64,000 nt of DNA from Thermoanaerobaculum aquaticum (GTDB taxonomy: Bacteria > Acidobacteriota > Thermoanaerobaculia > Thermoanaerobaculales > Thermoanaerobaculaceae), in NCBI RefSeq assembly GCF_000687145.1, contig NZ_JMFG01000005.1, positions 1 through 64,000 on the forward strand, read 5' to 3'. A model generated the notes under the pieces. It did no database searches. It was not told where the DNA came from and saw only the letters and a program-made list of their open reading frames with translations. Shown piece after piece: positions 16,610 through 25,887 of the stretch (position 1 is the first letter of the stretch; every line of letters begins with the position of its first letter). Both the position numbers and the translations under genes were made by a program.

Positions 16610-16638
16610 TTGACACCGGATTTGATCTCTTGTATAAC
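16610..16638 (+). promoter_or_regulatory. Sigma-70-type promoter of the efflux operon, with overlapping palindrome
   Basis: TTGACA (16610-16615) and TATAAC (16633-16638) are separated by exactly 17 bp, the best housekeeping promoter in the window. The start codon of the TolC-like gene is 21 nt downstream of the -10 box. A perfect 10-bp palindrome, ACCATATGGT (16637-16646), overlaps the end of the -10 box and the predicted start of transcription, a good position for a repressor such as the ArsR-family protein encoded at the end of this operon. The repressor link is inference. Confidence 0.85.
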
Positions 16639-16658
16639 CATATGGTGATGGAGGGAGC

Positions 16659-17993
16659 ATGAGACGTGGAGTTTGGATGCTCGTGTGTTCTTTGGGGCTT
16701 TGGGCCAGCAGCACATGGGCCCGGGAGTTGAGCCTGGAAGAAGCCATGCGTCTGGCGCGGGAGCGGCAAGCCACGGTGCAGGCGGCCAAAGCCGAAGAGG
16801 AAGCGGCCGCGCAGCGCGTGAATCAAGCCAAGGGCTTCCGCCTTCCCAGCCTGCGCTTCGATGAGGTGTTCATCCGCACCGACTCACCGGCTGAGGCCTT
16901 TGCCCTCAAGCTCAACCAGGAGCGCTTTTCCTTTCCAACCTTCATGACCACAGATCCCAACCGCCCGAAAAAGCTGGACACCGCCATTTCCCGCTTTGAG
17001 CTGCAGCTGCCGGTGTACACGGGCGGGGAGCTCTCTTCCCGGATCGCCCAAGCCCAGCGCTTTGCGGAAAGCAAAACGCTGGCCAGACAGTGGGCTGAGC
17101 GGCAAGCGGCCCTGGCTGCGGCGGAGGCCTACGTGATGCTGGCCCAAGCCCAGGAGTACGTGGCGTTGCTGCAGAAGGCTCGCGACACGGTGGCGGCCCA
17201 TGTGGCTTTGGCCAAGGCGTACGTGGATCAGGGCATGCTGGTGGAAGCCGAGTACCTGCGGGCGCAGGTGGAGCTTTCACGGCTTGAAGACCTCTTGGCG
17301 CAGGCCAAAGGCCAGGAAGAAGTTGCGCAAGCCAACCTGGCTTTCCGGCTGGGCCTGGAGCAAACGGAGCGCTTTGAGATTAAGCCCTTGGCATTGCCTG
17401 CCGGGCCCGCTGGTGGCCTTGAGGAGTACCTGGCCACCGCGGAAGCCCGCCCCGATGTGAGGGGGGCCGAGGCCATGGTTAAGGCCGCGGAGCTGGAAGC
17501 CCAGGTGAAAAAGGCCGCCTTCCTGCCCAAGGCGGGGATCGTGGCCCGAGCTGACTGGGTGGACGACACGCTCTTTGGCACCCACGGCGACAGCACCACG
17601 GTAATGGCCGTGGTGGGAGCCAACCTCTTTGCCGGCGGGTCTGACCGTGCGGCGGTGGCGGCCGCCCGGGCCGAAGCGCGCGCGGGAAGCGAGCAGGTGA
17701 GGTTTGCCCGCCAGGGGGTGGCGCTGGAAGTGCGGCAAGCGTACGTGGAAGCGCAGGTGGCGGTGGCACGGGTGGCCACCGCCCGCAAAGCCCTGCAGGC
17801 CGCGGCGGAGGTGGAACGGGTCACTACCGAGCGGTTCCGGCAGGGGGTGGTGAAGATGATTGACCTTTTGGACGCCGACACCGCCCGGCGGGAAGCGGAA
17901 ACGCGAGAGCTGGTGGCGCGAGCTGAAGCGCACCTGGCCCTTTTGCGCCTGGCCGTCAAAGCCGGCCGGGAACCGGAATCGGCGCTGCAGTAG
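16659..17993 (+). CDS. TolC-family outer-membrane efflux protein
   Basis: Forms the outer-membrane and periplasmic exit duct of an efflux pump. The 444-residue product has a signal peptide (cut near residue 21, after STWA), then the two repeated coiled-coil halves typical of the outer membrane efflux family: long Ala/Glu/Gln-rich helices at about residues 130-240 and 330-440, with FAGGSDRAAVAAARAEA marking the start of the second half. First gene of the operon, directly behind the promoter at 16610; the adaptor gene follows after 21 nt. Confidence 0.93.
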   Translation: MRRGVWMLVCSLGLWASSTWARELSLEEAMRLARERQATVQAAKAEEEAAAQRVNQAKGFRLPSLRFDEVFIRTDSPAEAFALKLNQERFSFPTFMTTDPNRPKKLDTAISRFELQLPVYTGGELSSRIAQAQRFAESKTLARQWAERQAALAAAEAYVMLAQAQEYVALLQKARDTVAAHVALAKAYVDQGMLVEAEYLRAQVELSRLEDLLAQAKGQEEVAQANLAFRLGLEQTERFEIKPLALPAGPAGGLEEYLATAEARPDVRGAEAMVKAAELEAQVKKAAFLPKAGIVARADWVDDTLFGTHGDSTTVMAVVGANLFAGGSDRAAVAAARAEARAGSEQVRFARQGVALEVRQAYVEAQVAVARVATARKALQAAAEVERVTTERFRQGVVKMIDLLDADTARREAETRELVARAEAHLALLRLAVKAGREPESALQ

Positions 17994-18014
17994 GTTTTTC
18001 GCAAGGAGGAGATC

Positions 18015-19088
18015 ATGAGCAAGACGTGGGTTTGGGTTTTGACCTTGGGAGTTTTGGCTGCGGGTTGCAAAGGGGGAAAGGACCACGTGGCGGCCCCCGC
18101 CCAGGAGGTAGGGAGCGTGAAAGCCCGCGTGGTGGCGGTCAATGCCGTCACGAAAAAGGAGCAGCACGCGGTGATGGGCACGGTGGAAGCGGAAAAGACC
18201 GCAGCGGTGTCCTCTCGCGTGATGGCCACGGTGCTGGCGGTTCACGTGAAACCGGGAGATCGGGTGCGCAAGGGGCAAGTGCTGGTGGACATCGATCCCG
18301 AGACCGCCAAGGGCCAGGAGGCTCAGGCCCGCGGGGCTTTGGCGCAAGCTCGTGCGGCATTGGCCTTGGCTGAAAGGAACTTCCAGCGCTTCAAGGCCCT
18401 TTACGAGGCCAAGGCCGCTTCTGAACTGGAGCTCGATATGGCCAAAATGCTGTACGAGCAAGCCAAAGGAGCGGTAGAGCAGGCGGAGGGTGCGGTGGCA
18501 GCAGCCAGCTCCGTGGCCAGGGAAAGCCGGGTGGTGGCGCCCTTCGACGGTTACGTCACCGCCAAGCTGGTGGAAGCGGGGGACCTGGCGGCGCCCGGCC
18601 GACCGCTGGTGATGCTGGAGTCGGCCACCGGTAGGCGCTTGGTGGTTACCGTGCCCGAGGGCACGTGGTCGCAAGTGGCCTTGAGCCTGGGCCAGGAAGT
18701 GCCGGTGACCCTGGATGCCCAACCCGGAAGGGCGTTTACCGGAAAGGTGGTGGAAATCACGCCCTCAGCTGATCCCGCCACGCACTCCTTCACGGTCAAG
18801 CTGGCCCTGGATCAAGAGGGGGTTCCGGCCGGCTCGGCGGGGCGTGCCCTGCTGCCCGGGGCCCAGCGTCAGGCCTTCCTGCTACCCAAGGAGGCGGTCC
18901 TCAACGTGGGCGGCCTCACCATGGTGGTGGTGGTGGATGCCCAGGGCCAGGCGCGATCCCGGGTGGTCACCATGGGACCGGAGGAAAACGGGATGGTGGA
19001 GGTGCTTTCCGGCCTTTCGGGGAGCGAACGGGTGCTGGTGGATCTGCCCCAGCCCCCAGCGGATGGAGCGCGGGTGGAGGAGGTGTAA
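18015..19088 (+). CDS. RND efflux periplasmic adaptor, lipoprotein
   Basis: Membrane fusion protein linking the RND pump to the TolC-like duct. The 357-residue product has a lipobox LAAGC with Cys18, so it should be a lipoprotein. It has the split lipoyl/biotinyl-like domain (VMATVLAVHVKPGDRVRKGQ at about residues 71-90, and SRVVAPFDGYVTAKLVEAGD at about 173-192) around a coiled-coil hairpin, then beta-barrel and membrane-proximal domains. Strong GGAGGAG ribosome-binding site. The substrate cannot be read from sequence. Confidence 0.93.
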   Translation: MSKTWVWVLTLGVLAAGCKGGKDHVAAPAQEVGSVKARVVAVNAVTKKEQHAVMGTVEAEKTAAVSSRVMATVLAVHVKPGDRVRKGQVLVDIDPETAKGQEAQARGALAQARAALALAERNFQRFKALYEAKAASELELDMAKMLYEQAKGAVEQAEGAVAAASSVARESRVVAPFDGYVTAKLVEAGDLAAPGRPLVMLESATGRRLVVTVPEGTWSQVALSLGQEVPVTLDAQPGRAFTGKVVEITPSADPATHSFTVKLALDQEGVPAGSAGRALLPGAQRQAFLLPKEAVLNVGGLTMVVVVDAQGQARSRVVTMGPEENGMVEVLSGLSGSERVLVDLPQPPADGARVEEV

Positions 19089-19091
19089 GCC

Positions 19092-22000
19092 GTGAACGGG
19101 GAAAAGAACAACCTGCAGCTTACAAAAAGGGAAGCCATGCGGCTGCGCATGGCCAGGCGCCCGCTGGGGGCCTCCGGCCGAATTGCCAAGGCTTTCCTTG
19201 AGTCCAAACTCACGCCCCTCTTGGTGGTGTTCTCTTTGCTCCTGGGTGCCTTTGCGGTGATGGTCACTCCGCGGGAGGAAGAACCGCAAATCAAGGTGCC
19301 CATGGTGGACGTGTTTGTGGGCTTCCCGGGGGCCACCGCGCAGGAGGTGGAACGCCGGCTCATCACCCCGCTGGAGAAGGCCCTCTACGAGATCCCCAAC
19401 GTGGAGTACATCTACTCCACCTCCCAGCCTTCAGGGGGCATGATCATCGTGCGCTTCCTGGTGGGCACGGACCCCGACCAGGCGGTGGTGCGGGTGCACA
19501 GCAAGCTGGCGGAGCTTACCCCGACGCTGCCGGCGGGGGCGATGCCACCGGTGGTGGCGCCTCGCTCCATTGACGACGTGCCGGTGGTGGCCTACACCCT
19601 CTGGTCGCCCTCGGAGCCGCCGGTAGCCTTAAGGCAGGTGGCCGAAGAGCTCAAGAACGAGCTCACCCGCCACCCCCGGGTGGCGCAGGTGTGGGTGCTG
19701 GGAGGGCAGCGGCGGGTGGTGCGTGTGACCTTTGACAAGGATCGCTTGGCCGCCCATCACGTGTCTTTGCTCCAGGCCTACCAGGCGGTGGCTGGCCTGA
19801 ACTGGAGCTTGCCGGCAGGCTCCTTTGCCCAGGCCGACCAGGAAGTGCTGGTGGACGTGAGCGCGTTCTTCCGCTCGGCGCAAGAGGTGGCCAATGCGGT
19901 GGTGGCGGTGTACGCTGGCCGACCGGTTTACCTCAGGGACGTGGCCGAGGTGGCCGATGGCCCCGAGGAACCCAACCAGTACGCGTGGATGATCGGTGGC
20001 CCCGCCGGCCACGAAAAGGGCTTGCCTGCCGGCTTGGTGGCGCCGGCGGTGACCGTGGCGGTGGCCAAAAAGCCCGGCACCAACGCGGTGCAGCTGGTGC
20101 GGGAGCTGGACAGCCACCTGACCACGCTGCAGGGCAAGGTGATCCCCTCTTCGGTGCGCGTCACCAAGACCCGGGACTACGGTTTTACCGCCAACGAGAA
20201 GTCCTCGGAGCTCATCGAGCACATGGCCATTGCCACCTTTGCCGTGGTGCTGTTGATGGCCTTCGCGTTAGGGCGAAGGGAAGCCATCGTGGTGGCGGTG
20301 GCGGTGCCGGCAACCCTGGCTCTGACGCTGGCATCCTCGTACCTCTTTGGCTACACCCTCAACAGGGTCACGCTCTTTGCCCTCATCTTTGCCATCGGCA
20401 TCCTGGTGGATGACGCCATCGTTGTGGTGGAGAACATCCACCGGCACTACGAACTGGGGTGGGCGCCTCCGCGCCAGGCCACGGTGTACGCGGTGGACGA
20501 GGTGGGAAACCCCACCATCCTTGCCACCTTCACGGTGGTGGCGGCCCTTTTGCCTCTGGCCTTTGTGTCGGGGTTGATGGGCCCATACATGCGCCCCATC
20601 CCCATTAACGCTTCGGCGGCCATGCTGTTCTCTTTGCTGGTCGCCTTTGTGGTTTCCCCGTGGCTTACCTTCAAGCTCTTCCGCAAGTGGGCGGAAGCGC
20701 ATTTGTCTGGCGAAGCGGAACCCGATGCAGAAACCCCTGAGGAAAGCAAGCTGCACCGTTTCTATCAAAAGCTCTTCACGCCACTTCTGGCTTCGGCCTG
20801 GCGACGGTGGGCGCTTTTGGCCGGAGTGGTGGTGTTGCTCCTGGGATCCATGGTGCTGGTGGTCCTCAAAGTGGTGACGGTAAAGATGCTGCCGTACGAC
20901 AACAAGAGCGAGCTGCAGGTGGTCATTGATATGCCCGAGGGCAGCACCTTAGAAGCTACGGCGGCGGTAGCCCGGGAGCTGGCGGAAACCCTCAGGCAGG
21001 TCCCGGAAATCACCGACATGCAGGTTTACGTGGGAACTTCGGCCCCCTTTAACTTCAACGGCCTGGTCCGCCATTACTTCCTGCGCTCAGGGCCGCTGGT
21101 GGCGGACATCCAGGTCAACCTCTTGCCCAAGCACCACCGTTCCCGGGCCAGTCACGACATTGCCAAGGCGGTGCGGGAGCTTTTGCAACCGGTGGTGGCA
21201 AAGACCCCGGCCAACGTCAAGGTGACCGAGGTGCCTCCCGGCCCGCCGGTGCTTTCCACGCTGGTGGCGGAAGTTTACGGCCCGGAGCTGGAGGTGCGGC
21301 TGGCCCTGGCGCAGGAGGTGCGGAAGATCTTTGAACAAACCCCGGGCGTTGTGGACGTGGACTGGTACGTGGAGGACCCGGCGCCGAAGCTGGACCTGCG
21401 GGTGGATCGGGAAAAGGCCATGCGCGCCGGCATCACACCGGAAATGATTGCCCGCGCCCTGCGGGTGGCCCTGGATGGGGCGGAGGTGACGCTTCTCCAC
21501 GACGAACGCTCGCGTACTCCGGTGCCTCTGGTGTTTAGGCTGCAGCGGGCCCAGCGCTCCAGTGTGGCCAGCCTCCTGGACGTGCGGTTGCACGGAGCCG
21601 CCGGCCAACTGGTGCCGCTTTCCGAGCTGGTGACGGTGGTTCCCACCAGCCGTGAGCGCTTCATTTACCACAAGAACCTGCGGCCGGTGACCTACGTGGT
21701 GGCGGAAATGGCAGGCGTTCTGGAAGCGCCGGTGTACGGCATTCTCGCCATGGAGCGGCAAATCGCCAGCCTCAGGGGTCCCGATGGCCAGCCCATCGAG
21801 GTGATCTCCACCCATTTGCCCGCCGACAACACCCGCTACAGCCTCAAGTGGGATGGGGAGTGGCACATTACCTACGAGGTGTTCCGCGATATGGGTGTGG
21901 CCTTTGCGGTGGTTTTGGTGCTCATTTACCTGCTGGTGGTGGGGTGGTTCCGCTCCTTCGTAACTCCCCTCATCATCATGGCGCCCATCCCCCTCACGTT

Positions 22001-22394
22001 GGTGGGCATTCTCCCCGCTCACGGCTTGTTTGGCGTCTTCTTCACCGCTACCTCCATGATTGGCTTTATTGCTCTGGCGGGGATCATCGTCCGCAACTCG
22101 ATTTTGCTGGTGGACTTCATCAACCTGGAGCTGGGATCCGGTGAAACCCTGGAAAACGCCGTGATCAAAGCGGGGGCGGTGCGCTTCCGGCCCATTGCTC
22201 TCACCGCGGCAGCGCTGGTGGTGGGCGGGGCTGTCATCCTTCTGGACCCCATCTTCCAGGGGCTGGCGGTGGCGCTGATTTCGGGGGTGGTGGTCTCCAC
22301 CATGCTAACGTTGGTGGTGATTCCGCTCTTGTACTTCATGTACGTGAGGACCGTGGGGGTGGAGAAGGTAATCTCCGCCAACGGCGACGAGTAA
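19092..22394 (+). CDS. RND-family efflux permease (AcrB/CzcA superfamily)
   Basis: Proton-driven inner-membrane pump of 1100 residues, starting at GTG 3 nt after the adaptor gene. It has the RND layout: helix 1 near residues 35-55, a large periplasmic loop (PREEEPQIKVPMVDVFVGFPG), helices 2-6 with GILVDDAIVVVENIHRHYE, a second large loop, and a C-terminal helix block (IGFIALAGIIVRNSILLVDF). The helix 4 motif has Asp-Asp, as in drug-type pumps, rather than the CzcA or CusA pattern, so a metal substrate is not proven. The partner genes downstream (ArsR, zinc ribbons) nevertheless suggest a toxic inorganic or thiol-reactive substrate. Confidence 0.95.
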   Translation: MNGEKNNLQLTKREAMRLRMARRPLGASGRIAKAFLESKLTPLLVVFSLLLGAFAVMVTPREEEPQIKVPMVDVFVGFPGATAQEVERRLITPLEKALYEIPNVEYIYSTSQPSGGMIIVRFLVGTDPDQAVVRVHSKLAELTPTLPAGAMPPVVAPRSIDDVPVVAYTLWSPSEPPVALRQVAEELKNELTRHPRVAQVWVLGGQRRVVRVTFDKDRLAAHHVSLLQAYQAVAGLNWSLPAGSFAQADQEVLVDVSAFFRSAQEVANAVVAVYAGRPVYLRDVAEVADGPEEPNQYAWMIGGPAGHEKGLPAGLVAPAVTVAVAKKPGTNAVQLVRELDSHLTTLQGKVIPSSVRVTKTRDYGFTANEKSSELIEHMAIATFAVVLLMAFALGRREAIVVAVAVPATLALTLASSYLFGYTLNRVTLFALIFAIGILVDDAIVVVENIHRHYELGWAPPRQATVYAVDEVGNPTILATFTVVAALLPLAFVSGLMGPYMRPIPINASAAMLFSLLVAFVVSPWLTFKLFRKWAEAHLSGEAEPDAETPEESKLHRFYQKLFTPLLASAWRRWALLAGVVVLLLGSMVLVVLKVVTVKMLPYDNKSELQVVIDMPEGSTLEATAAVARELAETLRQVPEITDMQVYVGTSAPFNFNGLVRHYFLRSGPLVADIQVNLLPKHHRSRASHDIAKAVRELLQPVVAKTPANVKVTEVPPGPPVLSTLVAEVYGPELEVRLALAQEVRKIFEQTPGVVDVDWYVEDPAPKLDLRVDREKAMRAGITPEMIARALRVALDGAEVTLLHDERSRTPVPLVFRLQRAQRSSVASLLDVRLHGAAGQLVPLSELVTVVPTSRERFIYHKNLRPVTYVVAEMAGVLEAPVYGILAMERQIASLRGPDGQPIEVISTHLPADNTRYSLKWDGEWHITYEVFRDMGVAFAVVLVLIYLLVVGWFRSFVTPLIIMAPIPLTLVGILPAHGLFGVFFTATSMIGFIALAGIIVRNSILLVDFINLELGSGETLENAVIKAGAVRFRPIALTAAALVVGGAVILLDPIFQGLAVALISGVVVSTMLTLVVIPLLYFMYVRTVGVEKVISANGDE

Positions 22395-22412
22395 GAAAGG
22401 GGGGTTAAGAAC

Positions 22413-22601
22413 ATGACGATTAACGAAGCGTTGCGAGCCATTGCCGGGTTTTTCGTGCTGGTTTCTCTGGCCTTGGGGCACTGGGTCAACCCGAACTTTT
22501 ACTACTTCACGGCCTTTGTGGGCCTGAACCTGCTGCAGTCGGCGTTCACCAAGTGGTGCCCCATGATCAGCCTGTTGCGGGCCTTGGGCTTAAAGGAGTA
22601 G
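22413..22601 (+). CDS. DUF2892 (YgaP transmembrane-type) small membrane protein
   Basis: A 62-residue protein with two predicted membrane helices (AIAGFFVLVSLALGHWV and FYYFTAFVGLNLLQSAF) and the typical DUF2892 end with a single Cys (TKWCPMISLLRALGL). This domain is common in small proteins and in rhodanese YgaP, and often sits beside RND pumps and ArsR regulators; its function is not known. Strong AAAGGGGGG ribosome-binding site; same operon as the pump. Confidence 0.88.
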   Translation: MTINEALRAIAGFFVLVSLALGHWVNPNFYYFTAFVGLNLLQSAFTKWCPMISLLRALGLKE

Positions 22602-22605
22602 CGCC

Positions 22606-22893
22606 ATGAAGTTTTTGATGATCATTGTGGATGAAAGCAAGAAGGAAGAGCTGGAGGTGCTGCTCAACCGGGTGGGGGTGGAGGGCTACACCGAAATCCC
22701 CCGGGTGGTTGGGGTCGGCACCACCGGACCCCGGTTGGGCTCCCGCGCCTTCCCCAAGACCTCGGCGCTCATCTTCACGGTGCTTTCCGAAAGCACTCTG
22801 GAAACGCTTCTCTCCACCCTGCGGGAGTTCTGCCGGGAGTGTGGGGAAAAGCTGAAGCTGGTGTCCTGGGATGTTAACGAGGTGAAGTTGTGA
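22606..22893 (+). CDS. P-II-like / DUF3240-type regulatory protein
   Basis: A 95-residue protein with a ferredoxin-like fold pattern (MKFLMIIVDESKKEELEVLL, then a loop and VSWDVNEVKL at the end), similar to the small P-II-like proteins encoded next to RND efflux pumps. It lacks the classical P-II T-loop tyrosine signature. It contains a Cys pair (CRECG near residue 80) that could bind metal or respond to thiol stress. It overlaps the ArsR gene start by 4 bases, so the two are translationally coupled. Confidence 0.72.
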   Translation: MKFLMIIVDESKKEELEVLLNRVGVEGYTEIPRVVGVGTTGPRLGSRAFPKTSALIFTVLSESTLETLLSTLREFCRECGEKLKLVSWDVNEVKL

Positions 22894-23333
22894 AGCGCCG
22901 ACGGATCCAGCTGACCCCCGCCACCCTGGCGCAACTTGCCCAAATATTGGCAGAAAGTTATATTGCGGTTGGGGGGGCGAACGTGGATCCCAAAGCTGAG
23001 CTGTTGTTTGAAAAGATCGCTGATAGGCTCAGATCCTTAGCCGATCCCACGCGACTGGCGATTCTTCACCTGCTGCAGAAGGGCGAGATGCGGGTCACCG
23101 ACATCCTTGCCGAAGTGGGCGGCAGCCAGGCTAACGTCTCCAAGCATCTGGGCGTCTTGCGGCAGGCGGGGTTTGTCACGTGTCGGCGGGACGGTGTCAA
23201 CATTTACTACTCGGTGGCCGATAGTTCGGTCTTTCAAATTTGCCGGGCCATTTGCGATGGCATCGAGCGCGCTGCTGAGGAAGAGAGAGAAGCCATTTCC
23301 CACGCCCGCAGGGTCCTGGGAGAGGGGGGGTAA
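22890..23333 (+). CDS. ArsR/SmtB-family transcriptional repressor
   Basis: A 147-residue winged-helix DNA-binding protein, GTG start overlapping the preceding stop. The ArsR core is clear: LRSLADPTRLAILHLLQKGE at residues 47-66, recognition helix SQANVSKHLGVLRQAGFV at 79-96, wing RRDGVNIYYSVAD at 99-111. The ELCVCD metal box of ArsR is absent; cysteines are at 98, 118 and 122, so the last two, in the C-terminal helix, may form the sensing site. An N-terminal extension of about 35 residues is unusual. It probably represses the operon through the palindrome at 16637-16646. Confidence 0.92.
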   Translation: MKRRRIQLTPATLAQLAQILAESYIAVGGANVDPKAELLFEKIADRLRSLADPTRLAILHLLQKGEMRVTDILAEVGGSQANVSKHLGVLRQAGFVTCRRDGVNIYYSVADSSVFQICRAICDGIERAAEEEREAISHARRVLGEGG

Positions 23334-23335
23334 GG

Positions 23336-23512
23336 GTGCTGGAGGGCTTGGTCTTTCTGGGGTTCATGGTGTTTTGGGTGGTGCTCCAGGCCTTTATCCT
23401 GCCCAAACTCGGGGTGCCCACCTGAGCGGCCCCCCGACCGACCGGTGGTCGGTCTGCAGGTCAGGACAGCTGCAACGTGACGGGCGATTCTAAGGAGGAA
23501 GCTGAGCGATGA
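23336..23512 (+). CDS. Candidate selenoprotein: small one-helix membrane protein with in-frame UGA
   Basis: GTG at 23336, 2 nt after the ArsR stop and behind AGGGGGGG, opens a frame with one strong membrane helix (LVFLGFMVFWVVLQAFIL, residues 5-22) and the motif LPKLGVPT, then TGA at 23423-23425 (residue 30). Reading TGA as selenocysteine continues the frame for 28 more residues, including Cys46, to a TGA at 23510-23512 that overlaps the next start as ATGA, the coupling pattern seen throughout this window. A perfect hairpin with a GGT loop lies 18 nt after the UGA. Total 58 residues. If the UGA were a true stop, a 29-residue membrane peptide would remain. I do not recognise a named family; a role in the efflux or detoxification operon is inferred. 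Confidence 0.72.
23436..23454 (+). promoter_or_regulatory. SECIS-like hairpin 1
   Basis: GACCGACC and GGTCGGTC form a perfect 8-bp stem around a GGT triloop (23444-23446). The loop begins 18 nt after the UGA at 23423-23425. Known bacterial SECIS elements lie directly after the UGA, with a short apical loop starting with G, about 16-37 nt away. As duplex DNA the same palindrome could instead be a protein-binding site. Confidence 0.7.
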
Positions 23513-23706
23513 GCGAAAAGCAGGAAAAACACCGGCAAGAGCCGGCCTGTCCCGCGTGCGGCGGGCATCTGCGGCCGGTTCCCACGTGAGGGATGCTGCT
23601 CTGGCGGTGCCAGAGCTGCGGTCGCATCATGTCCACCGACGAAGCCTTTCCCCAGGGCATCCCCAGCAACATTTGGGATCAGCTTTGGGGGCGTTGCGGA
23701 GGGTAG
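23509..23706 (+). CDS. Candidate selenoprotein: zinc-ribbon protein with in-frame UGA
   Basis: ATG at 23509 behind TAAGGAGG opens a frame with CPACG (Cys14, Cys17), TGA at codon 27 (23587-23589), then RCQSCGR (Cys34, Cys37), a Trp-rich tail (SNIWDQLWGRCGG, Cys63) and TAG. The two CxxC pairs that form a zinc ribbon lie on opposite sides of the UGA, so the protein makes sense only if the UGA is read; the reading frame and spacing are intact. A perfect hairpin with a GGT loop begins 9 nt after the UGA. Total 65 residues. Alternatives are a nonsense mutation or an independent 37-residue product from the ATG at 23593. Family not recognised; role in the efflux operon inferred. Confidence 0.75.
23598..23616 (+). 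promoter_or_regulatory. SECIS-like hairpin 2
   Basis: GCTCTGGC and GCCAGAGC form a perfect 8-bp stem around a GGT triloop (23606-23608). The loop begins 16 nt after the UGA at 23587-23589. Stem length, loop sequence and spacing match hairpin 1 although the stem sequences are unrelated, which indicates selection on structure. Confidence 0.75.
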
Positions 23707-23708
23707 CT

Positions 23709-23912
23709 ATGCCGCTTTACGAGTACCAGTGCGAAGCCTGCGGGCATCGCTTTGAGGTCTGGCAACGCATGGGGGCCGGAAGCCAGGGCGTGTCCTGCCC
23801 CCAGTGCGGCAGTCAAGAGGTGAAGAAGGTTTTATCCACCTTTGCCAGCAGCACGAGCGCCAGTGCCCCCTGCGGGTCCTCGGCCTCCTCTTGCTCCAGC
23901 GGCTTTTCTTGA
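23709..23912 (+). CDS. FmdB-family zinc-ribbon protein
   Basis: A 67-residue protein starting MPLYEYQCEACGHRFEV, the hallmark of the FmdB/CxxC_CxxC_SSSS family. Cys8, Cys11, Cys30 and Cys33 form the zinc ribbon, and the rest is a Ser/Cys-rich tail (STSASAPCGSSASSC). The molecular role of the family is unclear; the name comes from a putative regulator of formamidase. It starts 2 nt after the preceding stop in the efflux operon. Confidence 0.9.
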   Translation: MPLYEYQCEACGHRFEVWQRMGAGSQGVSCPQCGSQEVKKVLSTFASSTSASAPCGSSASSCSSGFS

Positions 23913-23921
23913 GGGATCTAA

Positions 23922-23940
23922 AAGGGCTCGGCGAGCCCTT
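23922..23940 (+). other. Intergenic hairpin after the FmdB-type gene
   Basis: AAGGGCTC and GAGCCCTT form a perfect 8-bp stem around a GGC triloop. It lies between the FmdB-type and DUF302 genes. There is no T tract, so it is at best a weak terminator; it may set mRNA ends or processing. Confidence 0.6.
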
Positions 23941-23999
23941 AAAGGCAGGGTTGGGCCTGGCAGACCAGAAGGAGTAAGACGCTGCGGGAGGGAGCAGAC

Positions 24000-24404
24000 A
24001 TGCGGGAAACATCCGTTGCTTTTGAGGAGAAATCTCAGTTTGGTTTTGAAGAAACCGTGGAAAGGGCAAGGCAAGCCCTGGCGGAGAGGGGCTTTGGCGT
24101 CCTCTGCGAAATTGACGTGCAGGCCACGCTCAAGAAGAAGCTGGACGTGGATCGGCCCCCGTACCTGATCCTTGGCGCCTGCCATGCCCCTTCCGCCCAC
24201 CAGGTGCTTTCCGCCGAGCCCCAGGCCGGCGTTCTCCTGCCCTGCAACGTCACGGTTTCCGTGGAGGAGGGTCAGGTGGTTGTGCGGGCCATGCGGCCCC
24301 AGGGGGCGCTGGCGGTTTTCAACCGCCCGGATTTGGCGCCGGTGGCCGACCACGTGGGCGAGCTCCTGCGGCAGGTGGTGGCCTTTGCCGCCGGCGGGCA
24401 GTAA
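24000..24404 (+). CDS. DUF302 domain protein
   Basis: A 134-residue cytoplasmic protein matching DUF302: FGFEETVERARQALAERGFGVL near residue 15, LILGACHAPSAHQVLSAEP near residue 55, and LLPCNVTVSVEEG. The HVxGACxP-like motif with Cys and His is kept. The family is often encoded beside redox or sulfur genes and has no proven function. It is the last + gene of this run; the convergent tyrosine phenol-lyase gene ends 16 nt further on. Confidence 0.87.
   Translation: MRETSVAFEEKSQFGFEETVERARQALAERGFGVLCEIDVQATLKKKLDVDRPPYLILGACHAPSAHQVLSAEPQAGVLLPCNVTVSVEEGQVVVRAMRPQGALAVFNRPDLAPVADHVGELLRQVVAFAAGGQ

Positions 24405-24420: not shown

Positions 24421-25887
<1,467 letters not shown>

Follow-up and report, generated by a model that had tools for sequence, protein, structure and literature searches.

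A predicted family of membrane selenoproteins and its association with a drug-type efflux operon in Thermoanaerobaculum aquaticum

Analysis of a 64,000-nucleotide stretch of Thermoanaerobaculum aquaticum DNA (positions 1 to 64,000 of contig NZ_JMFG01000005.1, referred to here as the window) reveals a compact set of ten forward-strand genes at 16659–24404, two of which contain in-frame UGA codons. The genes encode, in order, a TolC-type channel, an adaptor, an RND pump, a DUF2892 (YgaP-like) protein, a P-II-like protein, an ArsR-family regulator, UGA-gene 1 (U1), UGA-gene 2 (U2), an FmdB-type zinc ribbon and a DUF302 protein. Strong indirect evidence from sequence comparison supports the reading of both UGAs as selenocysteine (Sec), and U1 appears to represent a widespread family of membrane selenoproteins that is not found in current catalogues (Pfam, NCBIfam and a published table of 119 families). 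The neighborhood of U1 is conserved but modular.

Decoding of the UGA codons

U1 (23336–23512, + strand) starts with GTG and would encode a 58-residue protein with a single transmembrane (TM) segment, its UGA, codon 30, lying at 23423–23425. U2 (23509–23706, +) starts with an ATG that overlaps the U1 stop codon (ATGA), and would encode a 65-residue protein in which a CxxC, the Sec (UGA at 23587–23589, codon 27) and a second CxxC follow one another. Each UGA is followed by a hairpin resembling a selenocysteine insertion sequence (SECIS): that of U1 (23436–23454, +) has 8 bp and a GGU loop, is 18 nt after the UGA and has a predicted energy of −12.8 kcal/mol, and that of U2 (23598–23616, +) likewise has 8 bp and a GGU loop, at 16 nt and −13.4 kcal/mol. 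Both are inside the limits of the bacterial SECIS model given in PMC13188914 (loop of 3–9 nt, 4–16 bp, G in the first two loop bases, 16–37 nt).

Conservation, SECIS-like hairpins and the presence of Sec machinery together show that these UGAs are more than chance. First, the codon is almost invariant. A BLAST search with the window U1 gives matches in 30 of 297 genomes of the phylum; two of these (L034 and L042) lack the family motif and were dropped, and TGA is at one position in all 28 that remain. A profile of 32 members finds 71 matches in 70 of the 297 genomes, 69 of them with TGA, the other two being a Cys form in G187 and a fragment without the Sec site in G294. The 68 phylum loci considered below are these 71 without G294 and without G029:C24 and G081, which both have TGA; the site is Sec in 67 (slightly shifted in L290) and Cys in one. 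Of the 67 motif matches, 55 have Cys five residues after the Sec (U+5) and 39 have Met directly after it (U+1). A pattern allowing eight codons at the site (TAA, TAG, TAY, TGA, TGY and TGG) was scanned against GTDB genomes, and the 80 loci listed, out of at least 118 stretches, have TGA in 79 and TGC in one. Because both ATG after the site and Cys at U+5 were fixed in the pattern, the scan is uninformative on these two residues. The true stop codons of U1 are mixed (TGA 42, TAA 37, TAG 25 and two cut off; n = 106, a set in which at least one locus, L066 and L161, is counted twice). U2 matches have TGA in five of five, with the surrounding motif intact in three.

Second, a SECIS-like hairpin follows the UGA in 62 of 105 U1 genes, as compared with 2–9 of 105 after shuffling, 94 of 787 TGA codons that are ordinary stops of long open reading frames, and 7 of 105 when the stretch before the U1 UGA is taken instead.

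Third, the T. aquaticum genome encodes SelA (464.8 bits), SelD (344.4 bits), SelB (main piece 311.9 bits, rising to 340.7 when its in-frame neighbors are added) and a tRNA-Sec with anticodon UCA (79 bits). SelD (G000:C4:1976-2899) is a predicted selenoprotein as well, with a TGA inside its gene. One SelB-like GTPase stretch opens two contigs with equal coordinates and score (G000:C5:178-480 and C31:178-480), and probably reflects a tuf gene in two copies, each at a contig end. SelB is over the cut-off in 194 of the 297 phylum genomes, and strong SelB is present in 64 of the 68 with a UGA-containing U1, compared with 130 among the remaining 229 (Fisher p = 8e-10, a hand count uncorrected for kinship); beyond the phylum it is over the cut-off in 17 of 19 such genomes (all but L148 and L113). 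Of the Cys-U1 genomes, G187 has no SelB over the cut-off and L124 does, and a strict exchange of Sec for Cys is therefore not demonstrated.

It is scarcely credible that the UGAs are ordinary stops, leaving U1 as a 29-residue membrane peptide and U2 broken: 43 of the 105 U1 homologues do fail the hairpin criterion, but the exclusive use of UGA with two Cys variants at the site, the Cys at U+5, the hairpin excess and the association with SelB all argue otherwise. A prediction made earlier from the letters of the window (the original prediction) had described both genes as selenoprotein-like, and the codon conservation, hairpins and machinery lend it support.

The U1 family and its neighborhoods

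Members of the U1 family are about 54 residues long and have a single TM segment and the motif LP[RK]xG[VI]xT-U-x4-C; a 19-residue hydrophobic stretch scores above 1.6 in 102 of the 106. The matches listed place U1 in records from delta-proteobacteria, acidobacteria, planctomycetes, spirochaetes and others. Pfam and NCBIfam models give no meaningful match among 32 U1 scanned, the sections consulted of the 119-family selenoprotein table of PMC13188914 have no counterpart by motif, and literature searches, which excluded the text of Haft and Tolstoy 2025, turned up neither U1 nor this set of genes. The original prediction knew of no described system with this set; the pairing of an RND pump with a P-II-like protein is already described, as PII-NG (PMC7726332).

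The Cys form in G187 (L261 / L249; G187:C1, about 110131–110277) adjoins, by eye, an open reading frame resembling a CoA-disulfide-reductase/rhodanese fusion. The same locus contains a YgaP-like protein ending in LFGISTC and an LmbE-like open reading frame, both also recognized by eye. An origin of U1 from the tail (LGIxTC) of a YgaP-like protein was considered; GxxTC is present in none of the 52 distinct DUF2892-like tails in the loci then collected, and the DUF2892 tail beside the Cys-U1 in L249 does show it.

Neighbors were counted at the 68 phylum loci by six-frame searches with profiles built from these same loci; gene maps from a greedy open reading frame caller, which misplace some genes in GC-rich loci, were not the source of the counts. 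Within 3 kb of U1 are found DUF2892 (26 loci), FmdB (19), DUF302 (19), RND pumps (15), rhodanese and metallo-beta-lactamase (MBL)-rhodanese (persulfide-dioxygenase) types (11), thioredoxin (10), P-II (9), ArsR (9), TauE (5) and U2 (3). Densities per Mb at 0–3, 3–6 and 6–9 kb are 52.7, 0 and 0 for FmdB, 50.1, 0 and 4.2 for DUF302, and 44.8, 15.2 and 0 for rhodanese. Order is also regular, with RND (15 of 15) and P-II (10 of 10) always upstream of U1 and co-directional, and FmdB always downstream (20 of 20, 19 of them co-directional). Three layouts are seen repeatedly: pump-DUF2892-P-II-(ArsR)-U1-FmdB-DUF302, rhodanese/MBL-rhodanese-TauE-U1-DUF302, and DUF2892-U1-thioredoxin-FmdB. The full layout with U2 is present in the window, L063 and L064. 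In Desulfobacterota records the context is unlike that in Acidobacteriota: an extracytoplasmic function-type sigma factor often comes directly after U1 (L088, L093, L115, L122, L130 and L156), and in most of these six loci an anti-sigma-like zinc protein accompanies it.

U1 lies within about 2 kb of a pump of the window's subfamily in 13 of the 28 BLAST-found genomes (coordinates compared by hand), and the genes of this pump are found without U1 too. The original prediction had linked the UGA proteins to the pump and had named their occurrence elsewhere without one as evidence against the link; an RND pump lies within 3 kb at 15 of the 68 loci, and U1, which most loci have without the pump, is not tied to it, so that the link is refuted in part.

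A possible role in the response to reactive sulfur

The neighbors of U1 point to a function in the handling of reactive sulfur, the chemistry of which we infer. First, DUF2892, DUF302, rhodanese types and thioredoxin are found near U1, with few or none at 6–9 kb and nearly all co-directional. Second, the ArsRs of pump-type and rhodanese-type loci have in common a C-x3-C in the last helix, both Cys, C118 and C122 in the 147-residue protein of the window, being invariant in the seven U1-linked ArsRs chosen (7 of 14 ArsR labels in the gene maps, the others being more distant). Third, the Cys-U1 of G187 sits beside its CoA-disulfide-reductase/rhodanese-like open reading frame and a YgaP-like protein. 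In E. coli the sulfide-responsive ArsR relative YgaV is paired with YgaP (PMC9774250), and this precedent, the C-x3-C and studies of YgaP (PMC4730233) together favor, without proving, a thiol- or sulfur-responsive operon. The redox and thiol theme of the original prediction, and the sulfur branch of its guess at detoxification, are supported.

We propose, with belief and doubt about evenly balanced, that this is an ArsR-repressed operon that answers reactive sulfur species (persulfides, polysulfides) or other thiol-attacking compounds. ArsR would sense the compound through its C-x3-C helix and let go of the promoter palindrome. As a one-helix membrane protein that would hold its Sec near the membrane face (probably the cytosolic one), usually with a Cys five residues on, U1 would capture sulfane sulfur or an electrophile in the form of a selenyl-sulfide and might hand on or reduce the captured group. 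Its partners in this step would be DUF2892, thioredoxin, DUF302 and the small zinc/thiol proteins. Export of the resulting amphiphilic product would fall to the drug-type pump, which the P-II-like protein may tune. More tentatively, U1 could be an undescribed, nearly Cys-free family that provides a minimal membrane-anchored selenol in many phyla, relaying sulfane sulfur or electrons among inner-membrane YgaP-like proteins, efflux pumps and cytosolic thiol proteins.

Several observations count against this picture. Four phylum genomes with a UGA-containing U1 have no strong SelB (G055, G118, G127 and G242; completeness is 86% for G118 and 64% for G127), and the codon-position test shows a weak third-position bias after the U1 UGA (40%, versus 57% upstream). 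Cys at U+5 is absent from 12 of the 67 phylum U1, that of the window included, and net charge fits a cytosolic C-terminus in only 72% of 105 U1. The window ArsR does not have the first SqrR cysteine. No searched gene is within 5 kb at 12 of the 68 U1 loci, and sensor kinases alone are present at six more. Finally, none of the 15 pump loci has a rhodanese within 3 kb, so that the sulfur link reaches the pump via shared partners alone.

An alternative, which we consider unlikely, is a metal or metalloid efflux operon in which a soft metal would be exported by the pump, sensed by ArsR and bound by the Sec proteins. The regulator scores as HTH_metalloreg, and its C-x3-C could bind soft metals; moreover, Geobacter PII-NG/czcABC is induced by Co (PMC7726332), E. 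coli ygaVP is induced by tributyltin (PMC9774250), and most Sec-containing transport proteins are assigned to metal or metalloid resistance in a 2026 review (PMC13188914). However, the neighbors of U1 are sulfur and thiol proteins, and the pump (19092–22394, +; PF00873, 525 bits) is of the drug (HAE) type, scoring 260.5 bits, far below the TIGR00914 cut-off of 701.45 for heavy-metal (CusA/CzcA) RND pumps. Its nearest solved relatives are MexK, 6vej and MdtB, in that order, and the metal pump ZneA ranks about twentieth. Simple metal efflux is disfavored because of this pump class, and metal export by the pump, put forward in the original prediction, is not sustained.

It is more doubtful still that U1 serves membrane transporters as a small accessory subunit, with Sec as a redox switch. 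AcrZ on AcrB is a small transporter subunit of this kind, and U1 is small, has a single helix and lies downstream of pump genes, always co-directional, at 15 of the 68 loci; against this, 53 loci have no RND pump within 3 kb.

If a relay of sulfane sulfur or electrons by U1 is correct, the family would represent a selenium-dependent branch of reactive-sulfur defense, and methods that demand Cys homologues would tend to overlook families of the U1 type. The U1 neighbors would tie selenium to reactive-sulfur handling and drug-type efflux; U1 would enlarge the selenoproteome and offer small, testable proteins for asking why Sec persists where Cys is hardly used.

Operon organization and relation to known systems

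Each of the ten genes is found where it was first placed or a few bases away, and their tight packing and family names are upheld, the latter by Pfam matches above the gathering score (OEP, HlyD_D23, ACR_tran, YgaP-like_TM, P-II, HTH_5, Zn_ribbon_8 and DUF302). Successive genes are separated by 21, 3, 18, 4, −4, 2, −4, 2 and 87 bp, and gene content, order and conservation support the earlier assignment to one operon. A candidate promoter recognized by eye, TTGACA-N17-TATAAC (16610–16638, +), was missed by a promoter scanner because the scanner demands a T at the end of the −10 element. It is overlapped by a 16-bp near-palindrome, ATAACCATATGGTGAT (16634–16649, unstranded), which is a candidate ArsR operator and the sole match in the genome when one mismatch is allowed. 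The same arrangement of promoter and palindrome ATAACCATATRGYGAT also precedes TolC in the relative L064, with a variant form in L063.

The first two genes encode the TolC-type outer membrane channel (16659–17993, +; PF02321, 139.6 bits) and the RND periplasmic adaptor (18015–19088, +; TIGR01730, 207.9 bits over a cut-off of 94.9). Beyond the pump lie the DUF2892 two-helix membrane protein (22413–22601, +), which belongs to the YgaP-like TM family (PF11127, 49.2 over a gathering score of 25.3 bits) and has YgaP (2mpn) as its nearest solved relative, and the P-II-like protein (22606–22893, +; PF00543), assigned to the PG0541/PII-NG transporter-associated family by its NF045581 score (57.1 over 45 bits) and its RND neighbor. 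Of 20 further pump loci, 17 have DUF2892 and/or P-II close to the pump (a hand count; three loci are incomplete). The ArsR-family regulator (22890–23333, +; NF033788, 90.8 over 55 bits) was rejected as a SqrR/BigR persulfide sensor, since the first Cys (IMCYL in SqrR) is His in its profile alignment (RLAILHLL); it scores 53.1 against the 155 bits of the BigR model, and a scan of an anti-phage library gave nothing but generic HTH matches to it. The FmdB-type zinc ribbon (23709–23912, +; PF09723, 67.9 bits; TIGR02605, 72.8 bits) and the DUF302 protein (24000–24404, +; PF03625, 78.1 bits; nearest solved relative TT1751) complete the set. In the gap between them is a hairpin, AAGGGCTCGGCGAGCCCTT (23922–23940), which has no T run and is perhaps an attenuator inside the operon. 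A convergent 460-residue open reading frame (24421–25803, −) resembles, by eye, a tryptophanase or tyrosine phenol-lyase, which might supply indole or phenol.

Four known systems invite comparison. The order of motifs in U2 is that of the NF041197 dual CXXC motif small (seleno)protein (OS_HP3, DW), but U2 scores below the curated cut-off of 40 bits, at 24.7 for the window and 25.4 and 18.2 for two others. The Tso operon of Haft and Tolstoy 2025, with three selenoproteins as described in PMC13188914, is similar in combining several selenoproteins with an ArsR-type regulator, whereas no Tso model is reached by U1 or U2 and the window ArsR is below the TsoR cut-off. E. coli ygaVP, which is sulfide-responsive, likewise joins an ArsR-family repressor to a YgaP-like membrane protein; the window differs in having neither a rhodanese domain nor the first SqrR cysteine, and in the addition of an RND pump and selenoproteins. 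Finally, the association of PII-NG/PG0541 with RND pumps (Sant'Anna 2009, cited in PMC7726332) is matched by an RND pump adjoining a P-II-like protein that scores above the PG0541 cut-off; the window departs from that association in the drug type of its pump and in the addition of selenoproteins, DUF2892, ArsR, FmdB and DUF302.

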